NCBI RefSeq assembly: GCF_003966955.1
Contig: NZ_AP019367.1
Span: forward strand, 806,001-870,000
Source: Parolsenella catena
GTDB taxonomy: Bacteria; Actinomycetota; Coriobacteriia; Coriobacteriales; Atopobiaceae
Direction of reading: 5' to 3'
Length of the DNA: 64,000 bases
Shown piece after piece: positions 19,551-27,614 of this stretch. The notes under the pieces were generated by a model. That model saw only the letters and a program-made list of their open reading frames with translations, made no database searches and was not told the origin of the DNA. Numbering within the stretch: the first letter of the stretch is position 1; each line of letters opens with the position of its first letter. Made by a program: the position numbers and the translations under genes.

Positions 19551-19658
19551 GGCATTCGCGTCCCCGTTTGCTGATTGTTAGCTTAAGGTAAAGAAGTTTT
19601 GCTCGCGGGCCCTTGCGCTTGGGTGCCGCGGTTGACCACGACGCTACGGAGCCGCCCC

Positions 19659-21650
19659 GTGTTCTCCTGGATCACAGACATCTTCATGGCCATCATGCGG
19701 CCGTGCTACGAGCTTACGCACAACTGGTGGGCCACCATCCTCCTGTTCACGCTCATCGCCAAGGTGGTGCTCATGCCGCTGTCGCTGTGGTGCCAGTGGA
19801 ACTCTATCGTCATGGTGCGCATGATGCCGGCGCTCAACCGCGTCAAGGTCAAGTACTTCGGCGACCAGGAGCAGATCGGCGAGCGCCAGAGCGAGCTCAA
19901 CCACGAGTACCACTACCACCCGCTGCTCTCGCTCATCCCGCTTGCCGTCCAGGTCATCATCCTGTTCGGCCTCGTGGACGTCATCCACGCTATCGCCGAC
20001 TCGGGGGCCGCCGGCACCGAGTTCCTCGGCCTCGTGCCCATGGAGGACGGCGGGGCCTCGTGGGTCATGCCCGTGGCCGCCACGCTCTCGGCGGTCGTGA
20101 TGGGAGTGGCCTCCAACCACATCAACCCGCTGCAGCGCGAGCAGTCCCGCGCCGAGAAGAACTCCACGAACGGCCTGTCCATCGCCCTGTCTTTCTTCCT
20201 GGGCATCTACGTCTCGGCGGGCATGGCGTTCTACTGGGTTTGCTCGAACTTGCTCTCCATCGTCGTGCAGGCCGTCTGCAACCTGTGCATCAGGCCCGCC
20301 AAGTACGTTGACTACGGGGAGCTCGAGGCGTCCAAGGCCGAGCTCGCCGAGCTCAACTCCCTCTCCACCCGCAAGGGCCCCTGGTGGAGGCCCGACCCCA
20401 ACTCCCGCCGCGAGCGCGAGGACTACAGGCGCTTCTTCTCCATCGTGGGCAAGCACCTCGTGTTCTACTCCGAGCGCAGCGGCTTCTGGAAGTACTTCCG
20501 CGGCGCCGTCGAGTGGCTTCTCGCCAACACGGACATGTGCGTCCACTACGTCACCGGCGACCCCGACGACCAGGTCTTTTCCTACGCCGAGGCGCACCCG
20601 CGCGTGCTGCCCTACTACGTGGGCGAGAAGCGCCTCATCACGCTCATGATGAAGATGGACGCCGACGTCGTGGTCATGACCCTCGACGACCTCGAGAACT
20701 TCTACGTCAAGCGCTCCTACGTGCGCAAGGACACGCGCTACGTCTACGCCTTCCACCACCCGACGTCGCTGCACCTCGTGAGCCACGCCGCGGCCTTCGA
20801 CCACTACGACGCGCTCATGTGCGTGGGTCCCCACCAGGTGCGCGAGGCCCGCGCCCGCGAGGCGCAGGCCGGCCTCGCGCCCCGCGAGCTTGCCGCGTGC
20901 GGCTACGACCTCATCGACCGCGAGCGCGCCGACTACCTCTCCCGCGACCACGCCGCGGGCGGGCGCCCCACCGTCCTCATCGCGCCGTCGTGGCAGGAGG
21001 ACAACATCCTCGACCTTTGCGCCGACGAAGCCATCCGCCCGCTGCTCGGGCGTGGCTGGAGGGTGGTCGTGCGCCCGCACCCCGAGTACACGAAGCGCTA
21101 CCGCGCCCGCTGGGAGCAGCTCCAGACGCGCTTCGCCGACGTGCCCGCCGAGGACCTGTACTTCGAGCAGGACTTCTCGAGCTCCGACTCCATCCTGGAC
21201 GCCGACGTGCTCGTCACCGACTGGTCGAGCGTCTTCTGCGAGTTCGCGCTCGTGGCGTTCAAGCCGTGCGTGTTCGTGGACTCTCCCATGAAGGAGACCA
21301 ACCCCGAGTGGAGGGACCTCGGCATCGAGCCCACGGACATTGGGCTGCGCAATCGCGCGGGCGTCTCGGTCGCGCCGGGGGAGCTCGCCGAGAGGCTCCC
21401 CGGCGTGGTGGAGGACATGATCGAGAACGGCGCCTCCTGGCACGACCGGCTCGAGGCAGTCCGCGACGAGATGGTCTTTTACCCGGGCCACGGTGGCGAG
21501 AGGGACGGTCGCTACCTGCTGAGCCTCGTGCTCGAGGCCCAGGCCTCTCGCGAGGGCGACGAGGCCGCCGAGCTTGCGGCCCGCGAGGAGCGGAAGGCCC
21601 TGCTCGCGGATGACGTCATGCTGCCGAGGATTGGGAAGGGCGCCGAATAG
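19659..21650 (+). CDS. YidC/Oxa1-like membrane insertase fused to CDP-glycerol glycerophosphotransferase-like domain
   Basis: The 663-aa protein joins two families. Residues 1-215 read as a YidC/Oxa1 core: a first helix with conserved basic residue Lys35 (TLIAKVVLMPLS), a coiled cytoplasmic hairpin (KYFGDQEQIGERQSEL), and later helices near 90-110, 135-155 and 172-207. Residues about 265-640 resemble TagB/TagF poly-glycerophosphate transferases, with APSWQEDN, VVVRPHPEY (about 473) and VLVTDWSSVFCEFAL (about 520), the D-x-S-S donor motif. No signal peptide precedes the first helix. GTG 19659 has GGAG 7 nt upstream; the earlier TTG 19599 adds residues unlike YidC. Function is unknown; a membrane-tethered teichoic-type polymer transferase is plausible. 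Confidence 0.82.
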   Translation: MFSWITDIFMAIMRPCYELTHNWWATILLFTLIAKVVLMPLSLWCQWNSIVMVRMMPALNRVKVKYFGDQEQIGERQSELNHEYHYHPLLSLIPLAVQVIILFGLVDVIHAIADSGAAGTEFLGLVPMEDGGASWVMPVAATLSAVVMGVASNHINPLQREQSRAEKNSTNGLSIALSFFLGIYVSAGMAFYWVCSNLLSIVVQAVCNLCIRPAKYVDYGELEASKAELAELNSLSTRKGPWWRPDPNSRREREDYRRFFSIVGKHLVFYSERSGFWKYFRGAVEWLLANTDMCVHYVTGDPDDQVFSYAEAHPRVLPYYVGEKRLITLMMKMDADVVVMTLDDLENFYVKRSYVRKDTRYVYAFHHPTSLHLVSHAAAFDHYDALMCVGPHQVREARAREAQAGLAPRELAACGYDLIDRERADYLSRDHAAGGRPTVLIAPSWQEDNILDLCADEAIRPLLGRGWRVVVRPHPEYTKRYRARWEQLQTRFADVPAEDLYFEQDFSSSDSILDADVLVTDWSSVFCEFALVAFKPCVFVDSPMKETNPEWRDLGIEPTDIGLRNRAGVSVAPGELAERLPGVVEDMIENGASWHDRLEAVRDEMVFYPGHGGERDGRYLLSLVLEAQASREGDEAAELAAREERKALLADDVMLPRIGKGAE

Positions 21651-21657
21651 CGGCTCG

Positions 21658-23322
21658 TCAGTGCTTTCGTGCGCGCGAGGCCAGGGTGGCAAGTCCCCTC
21701 GCGGCCAGTGGGATGAGGCACAGGAAGAACGGGAGTGTGTACATTCCCTTCGCCTCCCAGAGCGTGTAGACGACGAACCCCATGAAGGCGGCACAGGGGA
21801 GGGCGAATTCAAGCGTCTTTGCCCGCTTCTTGCGTGCCTCGGCCACAAGTGCGGTGCCGCCAATCGTTGCCCCTAGGTATATCACGCTTTGCTGGCCGTC
21901 CATGACGCATTCGAGCGCACGACACGCGAGTCCGTGGGGCAGCGTCGCGTCTGCCGGGTCAAACCTGCCATCGTCTGCGTGCGTGCGTCCCTGGGAATCG
22001 GCCCTCATGATTCCGCAGCCCGCAATGTAGAGCGACTGGAACGAGGGGTCGAGCCATTCCGTGCCCAGCTTCTTGGCAAAGAACCAGGCGGCATAGCTGG
22101 GGTCGCTCGCGAACGTGGCGAGTGACATGGAAATCGAGTCTTGCGCGTCTCGCGACATCGCGGCTACGTCTCCCTCGCTTCCTATCTGGCTGTCCAAGGC
22201 CGAGGTGCTCCACCAGCCGGGCATGTCCTGGCCCAGGACGCTTTCATTGGACAGTCCCATGGCTATCCAAGCGGTCTTTGGCTGGTTTGAGGGCAGCTCG
22301 TAGCCCAGACGAGCCTCGATGACGGCTTGTGGAACGGCGCCAGAGAGCCTCGTGGCCACGACGAGAAGGATTGCGAATGCGATCCCCCAGGCACCGTCTC
22401 GCTTTCTCAGACAATCGACTAGAAGCACGACCAAGTACCCGATGGCGATGACGACGTACGTTGACTTGACGGCTAGGCCAAGGCAGAGAATGACGAAACC
22501 GAGCGCAACGAAGGCCATGCGCGCCGCACCCGCGGCGCCGCGAGACCTCTCCCATAGGCTCATGGCAAGGAGCGCGAGAAACAGTCCGATCGTGTTGCCG
22601 TAGGGAAACACTACGAACAACAGGGGCGCAAAGAGCGTCAGGGAGAGAAGGGCGCTCAACAGCCTTTCCGGCTTGGGGCGCCCGTTGATGACGCTTGACC
22701 TTACGAGCAAGAGCGACGTGCCCACGCAACACAGGGCGTTGAGCACCTGGAACGCCTGGACGTCAAAGTCCCCAAACATTCTGGAACACCCCTCGAGAAG
22801 CAGCAGAATTCCGCCCTGGTAGGGATAGTTCGAGAGGTACATGTCGCCCGGCAGCTTGTTGGCAAACGACTCGCTGTGGGGAAGAAACGAGCTCATGTCC
22901 CCGTGGGCGAGCTGCCTGGCGTAGGCAAGCAGCTGCGCAGAGTCGGAGAACCCATTGTGCTCGGTGGCGTTTGTCGCGATCCAACAAAGGCCGAACGCAA
23001 GGGCGGCCAGCGCGAGGGTTGTAACGAACCCTCTCTCTGGGATGAGGGAGGCCTTGCGAGCCACGAGAATCGCGATGAGCGCGTAGGCGATGCCCGAGAC
23101 GAGCGCCAGGCAGGTCATGAGCGTCCTGCCCGGCGCAAAGAGGTGCCAGATGGTCACATGCTCGCTCAAAGGGGCGAGGGATGGGGAGGCCGTGAGAAGA
23201 AGCGAGGTGACGAACCCGACTCCGCAGGCGATCGTCACGAGTGCGATGCCGAATACGAGGAACCAGTTGAGCTGCATTCCGCGTTCGCTGTCTTTTGGCG
23301 TCCCTGCTCGGTTCAAAATCAC
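21658..23322 (-). CDS. Multipass membrane protein, probable GT-C-type glycosyltransferase
   Basis: The 554-aa product has about ten to twelve hydrophobic helices. An extracytoplasmic loop after the second helix pair carries EHNGFSDSAQ, and a later loop has LSNYPYQGG, features common in lipid-phosphate-sugar-dependent GT-C enzymes of Gram-positive surface polymers. Donor and acceptor are unknown. GTG 23322 is the longest start, with GGGGAGG very close upstream; ATG 23277 is an alternative lacking a ribosome site. It converges on the YidC-TagF fusion with only 7 bases between stops, and lies downstream of ettA, 24 bases away on the same strand. Confidence 0.65.
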   Translation of the reverse strand: MILNRAGTPKDSERGMQLNWFLVFGIALVTIACGVGFVTSLLLTASPSLAPLSEHVTIWHLFAPGRTLMTCLALVSGIAYALIAILVARKASLIPERGFVTTLALAALAFGLCWIATNATEHNGFSDSAQLLAYARQLAHGDMSSFLPHSESFANKLPGDMYLSNYPYQGGILLLLEGCSRMFGDFDVQAFQVLNALCCVGTSLLLVRSSVINGRPKPERLLSALLSLTLFAPLLFVVFPYGNTIGLFLALLAMSLWERSRGAAGAARMAFVALGFVILCLGLAVKSTYVVIAIGYLVVLLVDCLRKRDGAWGIAFAILLVVATRLSGAVPQAVIEARLGYELPSNQPKTAWIAMGLSNESVLGQDMPGWWSTSALDSQIGSEGDVAAMSRDAQDSISMSLATFASDPSYAAWFFAKKLGTEWLDPSFQSLYIAGCGIMRADSQGRTHADDGRFDPADATLPHGLACRALECVMDGQQSVIYLGATIGGTALVAEARKKRAKTLEFALPCAAFMGFVVYTLWEAKGMYTLPFFLCLIPLAARGLATLASRARKH

Positions 23323-25261: not shown

Positions 25262-26377
25262 ATGGCATCCATGAACGACAAGGACTACTACGCCATCCTT
25301 GGCGTCGAGCATGACGCCGATGACGCGGCAATTCGCAAGGCGTTCCAGAAGCTGGCGCGCAAGTACCACCCCGACATCAACAAGGAGCCCGGCGCCGAGG
25401 AGAAGTTCAAGGAGATCTCCGAGGCATACGCCGTACTTTCCGACCCCGACAAGCGCCGCCGCTATGATGCCATGCAGTCCGGCAACCCGTTCGCCGGCGC
25501 CTCCTACGGCTCGCCGAGCCAGCCGCAGGGCGACCCCTTCGGCGGGATGGGCGGCTTTTGGGGCTGGCCCTTCGGTGCCGCGGGCGCGGGGCGGCAGGCA
25601 GGCTCGCGTCGCAGCCGCGCGTACAACCCCAAGGCCGGAGGGGACGTCGTCTACCAGCTTGACATCGATGACAAGCAGGCCAAGGAGGGCGTGCGCCGCG
25701 GCATCACGTACCAGCGCTACGTCGCGTGCGACGTATGTCACGGTGCGGGTTCGGTCCATGCGGACCACGCGCGCACGTGCCCCACGTGCGGGGGCTCTGG
25801 ACACATCTCCGTTGACCTGGCGAGCCTTCTGGGCCTTGGCGTCATGAACATGGTCTGCCCCGAGTGCGAGGGGTCGGGACGCGTGGTCGTCGACCCGTGC
25901 GAGGCATGCGGGGGCACCGGTCGCGTGCTGTCCGCGAGCGAGGTCGTCGTGGACATTCCCGCGGGAAGCCACGACGGTGACACGGTTCGCGTGCCCGGCA
26001 TGGGCAACGCCGGCACGAACGGCTCGTCGACGGGCGACTTCGTCTGTCGCGTGGGCGTTCCCAGCGAGCGCCTGCAGCCCCAGGCGGCGCAGGGATTCCA
26101 GATGATCGGCTTTGCCATGCCGTTCATCGTCTTGGGAGTCCTGCTCGACGTGCTCGCCCAGCTTACCGTCATCATCGCCATCCCGCTGCTCGTGGGCATC
26201 GTGCTCGTCGGCCGTGGTGGTGGCGTGCTGCACCATGCGGGCACGTGGTGGAGAAACGCGTGGCGCTACTTCGTGAACGGCTTCATGAACGCCGCCACGA
26301 TCGCCGTCTTCATGGCGCTCATGGTCTCCTGCATGTCCGGCTTTGGGACGGCCGGATACCGAGGCGGTTTCTACTAG
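25262..26377 (+). CDS. DnaJ-like co-chaperone with C-terminal membrane segments
   Basis: The 371-aa protein begins with a full J domain, including HPD (residues 36-38) that stimulates DnaK ATPase, then a Gly/Phe-rich linker and four CxxCxGxG zinc repeats ([32 protein letters not shown]). Only part of the substrate-binding domain follows ([18 protein letters not shown]). From about residue 282 the sequence turns hydrophobic, with helices near 285-325 and 345-362, replacing the second beta domain and dimerisation tail of DnaJ. It probably places DnaK at the membrane. ATG 25262 follows GGGAG. A canonical dnaJ lies immediately downstream. Confidence 0.85.
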
Positions 26378-26444: not shown

Positions 26445-27614
26445 GTGGAAGCTAAGGTCGACTACTACGAGGTGCTTGGCGTTGACCGTGATGCGGACGC
26501 CAGGACCATCAAGCGTGCGTTTCTCAAGAAGGCCAGGGCCCTTCACCCTGACGTGAACAAGGCCCCTGACGCCGAGGAGAAGTTCAAGGAGGTCAACGAG
26601 GCGTACTCGGTGCTCTCCGACGAGCAGAAGCGCGCCAACTACGACCGTTATGGCGACCCAGACGGCCTCGGCGGCTTCGGGGGCGCAGGTGTTGACGTCT
26701 CCGACATCTTCGGCGGCTTTGGCATGGACGACATCTTCTCCTCCTTCTTTGGCGGCGGTGCCTCCGGTGGCAGGACGGCCCGCACGGCTGGCCGCGACAT
26801 GGGCATCACGCTGCGCATCTCGCTTGCCGAGGCGGCCTCCGGATGCACGAAGACCGTTGCCTACGACCGCCTCGCTCCCTGCGACGACTGCAACGGCAGC
26901 GGTTGCGCCGAGGGTGGTCACGTCACCACGTGCTCGCGCTGCCATGGCACGGGTCGCGTCGTGACGGTCCAGCGCACGATCCTGGGGCAGATGCAGACGC
27001 AGTCCGAGTGCCCCGTCTGCCACGGTACGGGACATTCCATCGACCATCCCTGCGAGACCTGCGGCGGGCAGGGCCGCACGCCCAACCACGAGACCGTCAA
27101 GGTGGAAATCCCGGCCGGCGTCCACTCCGGCCAGTCCCTCAAGGTCGAGGGATACGGCGAGGCCGGCATCCGTGGCGACCGCTCGGGTGACCTCATCGTG
27201 CGCATTGACGTCCAGGAGGGAGAGCGCTTCCAGCGTGAGGGTGACGACCTGTACTGTGTCGAGGACGTCACGGCGCTCGAGGCCATGTGCGGCTGCACGC
27301 TCGACGTCGAGGGCGTGCTGAGCGACGAGCGCGTGAGCGTGACGGTGCCGGCCGGCAGCCAGCATGCCCAGCACATCGAGGTCGAGGGCTATGGCATGCC
27401 TCGCCAGGGCAGCCACGCTCGCGGCAAGCTCGTCGTGGTACTCAACGTGACCGTGCCCGGCGACCTCTCCGCCGAGGACCTCGAGGCGATCCGCTCCATC
27501 GCGGCTGCCCGAGGCGAGCGCGTCGCCGGCGCCAAGGCTGCCGAGCAGGCCGAGGGCTTCTTCGGCCATCGCCACGGCCGTGCAGCCTCTGCGAAGCCCA
27601 AGCACAAGAAGTAA
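26445..27614 (+). CDS. dnaJ: Chaperone protein DnaJ
   Basis: DnaJ delivers unfolded proteins to DnaK and stimulates its ATPase. The 389-aa product has the complete type I layout: J domain with HPD (about residues 34-36), Gly/Phe region, four zinc repeats ([32 protein letters not shown]) and both C-terminal beta domains ([21 protein letters not shown], then a second barrel). The GTG at 26445 is the only start giving the usual [10 protein letters not shown]-terminus; its ribosome site is weak. The stop overlaps mtaB (TAATG). grpE and dnaK are not adjacent. Confidence 0.93.

Follow-up and report, generated by a model that had tools for sequence, protein, structure and literature searches.

Within a 64,000-nucleotide stretch of the Parolsenella catena genome (hereafter the window), one gene joins a membrane domain of the YidC/Oxa1 type to a transferase of the TagB/TagF type, which raises the question of what such a protein does and which pathway it serves. 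The first-pass annotation had described a single reading frame encoding a YidC-like core followed by a TagF-type enzyme, and this fusion is borne out by Pfam, by the predicted fold and by the relatives of the protein. The frame runs uninterrupted from its GTG start, and the profiles of both halves, 60KD_IMP and Glyphos_transf, each score above their cut-offs. A sequencing error or an accidental join of two genes is excluded because full-length relatives exist at 39–90% identity. An AlphaFold2 model of the fusion protein, built from 50 relatives, had a mean pLDDT of 89.3, and the literature searched contained no mention of a YidC-glycerophosphotransferase fusion. Elsewhere in the window, two DnaJ-like genes lie adjacent and in tandem (25262-26377 and 26445-27614).

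Table 1. Features of the fusion gene and its downstream junction, in window coordinates.
Feature	Position	Strand	Basis
Ribosome-binding-like site GGAG, 7 nt 5' of the GTG start	19648-19651	+	sequence
Fusion gene, 663 aa: YidC-fold domain and GT-B CDP/CMP-donor transferase	19659-21650	+	Pfam, AlphaFold2 with structure comparison, relatives
YidC/Oxa1-fold membrane domain, residues 1-218	19659-20312	+	60KD_IMP E 2.8e-24; 3wo7 Z 18.6 over 1-219
Lys35 codon, at the YidC groove arginine position	19761-19763	+	Lys in 50/50 relatives, Arg in 12/12 canonical YidC
Ser174 to Ser178, two invariant serines, Met in the 12/12 canonical YidC compared	20178-20192	+	alignment
GT-B transferase domain (TagF/TarL fold), residues 262-639; invariant His366, His474, Asp521, Ser523	20442-21575	+	Glyphos_transf, TarL Z 20.6, TagF Z 19.8, invariance
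Junction without a sulfatase-type partner gene	21651-21657		decayed copy in the sister species at this junction
GT-C-like membrane protein	21658-23322	-	homologue at this position in the sister species

Residues 23–208, counted from the GTG, match the 60KD_IMP family with 86.4 bits against a cut-off of 35, and in the AlphaFold2 model residues 1–219 superposed on Bacillus halodurans YidC (3wo7) with an rmsd of 2.8 Å over 199 residues, in agreement with the five-helix core proposed earlier. Against the NCBIfam family TIGR03592 (YidC), the fusion protein scored 77.8 bits, below the curated cut-off of 84.3, and we therefore refer to a YidC-fold relative and not to a YidC insertase. Lys35, to which attention had been drawn as the basic residue of the first helix, falls on the position of the YidC groove arginine in the alignment and is invariant among the relatives, replacing the arginine of the canonical YidC proteins of the class, for which 12 sequences from Coriobacteriia served as the comparison set. 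Invariant in the fusions and different in these canonical proteins are, together with K35, residues N48, N153, N156, E161, S174, S178 and N197, and the YidC halves of the fusions form a single clade separate from the 12 sequences. A canonical YidC is also encoded in the same 1.80 Mb genome, in an rnpA-yidC-jag-type operon with jag-like genes nearby; the second, stand-alone copy that the first-pass annotation had proposed to look for is thus present, which rules out the fusion as the sole YidC of the genome. With the YidC/Oxa1/Alb3 insertases the fusion shares the fold, the PF02096 profile and a basic groove residue, but it differs from them in its lysine for arginine, its invariant polar set, its location outside the rnpA operon and its score below the NCBIfam YidC cut-off, and it carries an enzyme in place of the basic ribosome-binding tail.

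The C-terminal half matches Glyphos_transf (PF04464) over part of its length (E 1.4e-8; 34.5 bits against a cut-off of 22.1), a cut-off that some relatives do not reach. In the model, this half superposed on TarL and TagF and also on UDP-GlcNAc 2-epimerases (Z about 20–21), and is therefore of the GT-B type; since the epimerases score equally, the TagF/TarL fold is by itself not specific. An hmmsearch with the transferase half against the TagF structures gave no sequence match, and the link to TagF comes from Pfam and the fold comparison only. Both motifs read from the sequence earlier are in place, PHP as RPHP (His474) and D-x-S-S as Asp521-Ser523/524, and the four residues listed in Table 1 are invariant in the alignment of the fusions. 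The assignment as a CDP-glycerol glycerophosphotransferase-like domain was right. The GT-B fold and PF04464 are shared with the poly(polyol phosphate) polymerases TagF and TarL, to whose catalytic histidine pair and D-x-S-S the invariant residues may correspond. In the genome of the window, the fusion is the only Glyphos_transf match.

Full-length fusions were found in about 50 of 298 Coriobacteriia genomes, and both halves also lie in a single frame in many Clostridia and in three metagenome-assembled genomes labelled Saccharibacteria, so that the one-frame arrangement holds well beyond the window. A second collection contained the fusion in named Olsenella, Atopobium, Lancefieldella, Adlercreutzia, Gordonibacter, Angelakisella, Anaerotruncus and Eubacterium. 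Mean pairwise identity was 52% for the YidC half and 51% for the transferase half, and the distances of the two halves correlate (r 0.75), with none of 999 permutations reaching as high a value. Judged from these comparisons, the fusion is old and under selection. The YidC halves from the three loci labelled Candidatus Saccharibacteria (L097, L107 and L112) nest in a clade of Clostridia sequences, which suggests gene transfer or mislabelled bins. At these three loci, the fusion is located amid surface-polymer genes.

The neighbourhoods of the relatives contain a constant partner. Among 80 near-complete Coriobacteriia genomes of two families, an LtaS-like membrane protein of the sulfatase type is encoded in 38/38 genomes with the fusion and in 0/42 without it (Fisher p 1e-23, without correction for kinship), and in the genera that contain both fusion-bearing and fusion-free members (codes g3, g14, g32, g35 and g40) the partner tracks the fusion every time. 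The same partner was found at 33 of 34 Bacillota/Saccharibacteria fusion loci, and where the flanks are long enough to judge, most relatives have one to three genes right beside the fusion that encode such a membrane protein, carrying a Sulfatase/alkaline-phosphatase domain, gene calls at these loci having been made mechanically. The partner profile matches Staphylococcus aureus LtaS at 3.7e-13, the predicted structure has the LtaS/LtaP/YejM fold (Z 20–21), and the residues Asp357, Thr394 (26/27), His554, Asp609 and His610 are kept, placing the partner, by sequence and model, in the LtaS-type alkaline-phosphatase superfamily with its catalytic fold, metal ligands and threonine nucleophile.

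Unlike LtaS, LtaP and YejM, the partner is always paired with a YidC-transferase and has an N-terminal membrane element of its own, 'YVDPSVMTY', which lies at the N-terminus of the Coriobacteriia partners, whereas Clostridia encode it next to the fusion in a gene of its own, some 90 codons long. Small proteins of ~90 aa with a 'YIDPSVMTY' membrane segment (L104:7890-8156, L107:7869-8132 and L085:12308-12571) are homologous to the N-terminus of the Coriobacteriia partner, and the one that was scanned matched no Pfam family above the cut-off. At two Clostridia loci (L098:3994-5877 and L102:3670-5883), the N-terminus of the partner carries peptidoglycan-binding-like repeats in place of membrane helices.

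This obligate partner is missing from the window. The first-pass annotation had seen hints of a surface-polymer pathway in the adjacent GT-C-like gene and in the GT2 genes at the window start, which are not the conserved partners. Between the end of the fusion at 21650 and the end of the convergent GT-C-like gene at 21658 there is no partner gene; in the sister species (G086, L118:7907-9900), exactly this place between the fusion and the same convergent gene is held by a partner that is decaying into a pseudogene, its frame broken and its Asp-His motif lost. An intact partner paralogue lies elsewhere in the genome of the sister species, and the genome of the window has one as well, of 739 aa, at a different locus. 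The GT-C-like neighbour itself, for which neither Pfam nor NCBIfam gave a family with a meaningful score, adjoins the fusion in the sister species too, but it does not belong to the gene set shared by other fusion loci, and was rejected as a functional partner.

In some relatives the modules are permuted. YidC, transferase and sulfatase form a single frame of 1360–1430 aa in several genomes, while in seven Coriobacteriia genomes free relatives of the transferase lie beside, or within 10 kb of, a 915–1060 aa fusion of YidC with the sulfatase. These YidC-sulfatase proteins match 60KD_IMP (E about 1e-20) as well as Sulfatase and were recovered in ten genomes including the same seven. In YidC-sulfatase fusions of 930–1060 aa (L143:8341-11517, L144:2520-5453, L146:7115-9913 and L072:10268-13054), the groove Arg/Lys position appears as Asn; two of the free transferases have a 'YIDPGTGSM' element at the N-terminus. 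Since YidC is joined to the inner enzyme, to the outer enzyme or to both in one chain, the simplest reading of these sequences is that YidC serves a step between the two.

Such permutations bear on two other explanations of the YidC half. It might do no more than anchor or dock the transferase next to the LtaS-like enzyme, export being left to another flippase. Such a role would suit a transferase to which the window protein offers no further membrane segment and whose free relatives are known without a fused YidC, and also the setting of L097, L112 and like loci among surface-polymer genes. However, conservation is as strong in the YidC half as in the catalytic one, and the YidC half keeps a set of invariant polar residues of its own, which would not be expected of an anchor only, and YidC is elsewhere fused to the LtaS-like protein, which has membrane helices of its own; a pure membrane tether is thus disfavoured, and we regard it as rather unlikely. 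Alternatively, the YidC half could serve as an insertase dedicated to the LtaS-like partner or to the small 'YVDPSVMTY' membrane protein, the fusion coupling their biogenesis to the transferase, an idea in keeping with the YidC-family fold and profile and with the strict pairing with a polytopic membrane protein. A housekeeping YidC exists in the genome, however, and a dedicated insertase is hard to picture when several relatives carry its supposed client in one chain with it, making this explanation improbable.

The donor-making genes give an indication of what the transferase half may use. LicC-LicA fusions, of a cytidylyltransferase with a choline-kinase type domain, are present in 37 of the 38 fusion-bearing genomes versus 19 of the 42 fusion-free ones, and in 13 of the 38 they lie within 10 kb of the fusion (chance expectation 0.5). 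A PEP mutase gene, usually joined to cytidylyltransferase domains, is near the fusion at nine of the 34 Bacillota/Saccharibacteria loci, where it shares the stretch with phosphonopyruvate decarboxylase, an iron alcohol dehydrogenase or both, and a nucleotidyltransferase-aminotransferase fusion is near eight others. Lic/Pnt-type donor-making genes are thus both present and linked to the fusion across the Coriobacteriia and Bacillota/Saccharibacteria loci, and they differ among fusion clusters. Choline-binding repeats, found in 24/38 fusion-bearing versus 18/42 fusion-free genomes, are not specific and were discarded as a marker of the fusion.

These genes also weigh on the possibility that the fusion is a TagF-type polymerase that makes a glycerol-phosphate polymer from CDP-glycerol. 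The Glyphos_transf profile and the TagF/TarL fold would agree with such an enzyme, and the genome of the window, in which the fusion has no Glyphos_transf competitor, does hold one TagD-type gene above the cut-off. Yet a TagD-type CDP-glycerol synthase exceeds the cut-off in 3 of 38 fusion-bearing versus 6 of 42 fusion-free genomes, the sister species, whose fusion is 90% identical, has no TagD match, and the neighbouring genes encode other donors (CDP-choline-like and CMP-phosphonate). As the capacity to make CDP-glycerol is not associated with the fusion, we rejected CDP-glycerol as the general donor and hold the polymerase to be very improbable. Of the functions first suggested, the teichoic-acid polymerase and the pure tether have thus lost ground, whereas the 'lipid/polymer translocation module' comes close to the reading best supported here.

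The genome of the window itself contains two LicC-LicA genes, a LicD gene, many choline-binding repeats and the TagD-type gene, and a PEP-mutase query of this genome found no match, so that a phosphocholine-like donor fits it better than a phosphonate. Judged by genome content and not by adjacency, a phosphocholine-like donor is the most likely one here, and since LicD and TagD-type genes are present, the classical LicD route or a CDP-glycerol donor may also apply. Choline-binding repeats gave 42 matches in this genome, one such protein having an NlpC/P60 domain, and proteins with these repeats adjoin a LicC-LicA gene and a LicD gene at L127:10859-13063 and other loci.

A locus from another actinobacterial class (G460, L165:3523-10044) encodes a PEP mutase-cytidylyltransferase, phosphonopyruvate decarboxylase, an iron alcohol dehydrogenase, a free Glyphos_transf transferase and a membrane sulfatase, and from its gene content looks like a complete hydroxyethylphosphonate tailoring pathway. 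Its free transferase, the only such relative in the Actinomycetota sample outside Coriobacteriia, is related to the second half of the fusion, and YidC is fused there to neither transferase nor sulfatase, from which it follows that the YidC fusion is not universal in the pathway.

Taking these observations together, we propose, at about even chances, that the fusion protein is dedicated to a surface-decoration pathway, with its transferase acting inside, its YidC-fold domain carrying across and the LtaS-like enzyme transferring outside; such a pathway is well supported by context, and it is the exact donor, a lipid-linked intermediate and the translocation that we infer. In a first step, suggested by the neighbours and the fold, the cytoplasm-facing GT-B domain would move an X-phosphate or X-phosphonate from CDP-X or CMP-X onto a membrane acceptor at the inner face, the group possibly being phosphocholine, a phosphoethanolamine-like group, or a phosphonate, for instance hydroxyethyl- or aminoethylphosphonate. 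The YidC-fold domain, as a second copy of YidC whose polar groove is re-tuned, would then pass the charged head-group to the outer leaflet. In the last step, to which the fold and catalytic residues of the partner point, the LtaS-like enzyme would shift the group from the lipid to a polymer of the outer surface. LtaS is known to transfer glycerol-phosphate from phosphatidylglycerol. A precedent for the second step is the scrambling of lipids by purified Escherichia coli YidC in liposomes (PMC10491306), which is not proof of a specific role here because scrambling is a general property of YidC. More tentatively, and as a possibility that we place somewhat below an even chance, the YidC fold would be a dedicated translocation module within an enzyme pair, with a lipid-linked phospho- or phosphono-group made inside, its head carried through the groove, and the group used outside by the LtaS-like enzyme.

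The proposed pathway overlaps with known systems and departs from each of them. With the Pnt pathway (PEP mutase and PntC; PMC6697681) it shares CMP-activated phosphonates for cell-surface tailoring and the PEP mutase, decarboxylase and cytidylyltransferase genes that lie beside the fusion; the steps after CMP-AEP are described for that pathway as unknown, with LicD-like transferases or glycosyltransferases named nearby, and the paper makes no mention of a YidC-transferase fusion with an LtaS-like partner (PMC6697681). PntC from Lancefieldella (Atopobium) rimae ATCC 49626 makes CMP-AEP (PMC6697681), and this strain has the fusion with an adjacent LtaS-like gene (L069) and no PEP mutase gene within 6 kb. 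In the pneumococcal Lic pathway, phosphocholine is added in the cytoplasm by LicD and the units are exported by TacF, a MOP flippase (PMC13385700). The LicA/LicC chemistry is common to both, as are the choline-binding repeat proteins in the genome of the window, but a YidC-fused GT-B transferase with an LtaS-like enzyme would stand here in the place of LicD and TacF. Unlike TagF and TarL, the transferase is fused to YidC, is not tied to TagD and has its obligate LtaS-like partner.

If the more tentative reading of a dedicated YidC-fold translocation module is true, it would be a third route for such surface groups, beside LicD with a MOP flippase and LtaS using phosphatidylglycerol, and the fusion would contain a YidC-family member that works in lipid transport and not in protein insertion. 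The finding itself names candidate enzymes, strictly paired in the genomes, for what follows CMP-activation when bacteria tailor surfaces with phosphonates, and offers a natural setting in which to ask whether the lipid scrambling of YidC-family proteins seen in vitro (PMC10491306) has a biological use. The genes occur in common gut and oral bacteria of humans and animals, some of them rich in choline-binding proteins.
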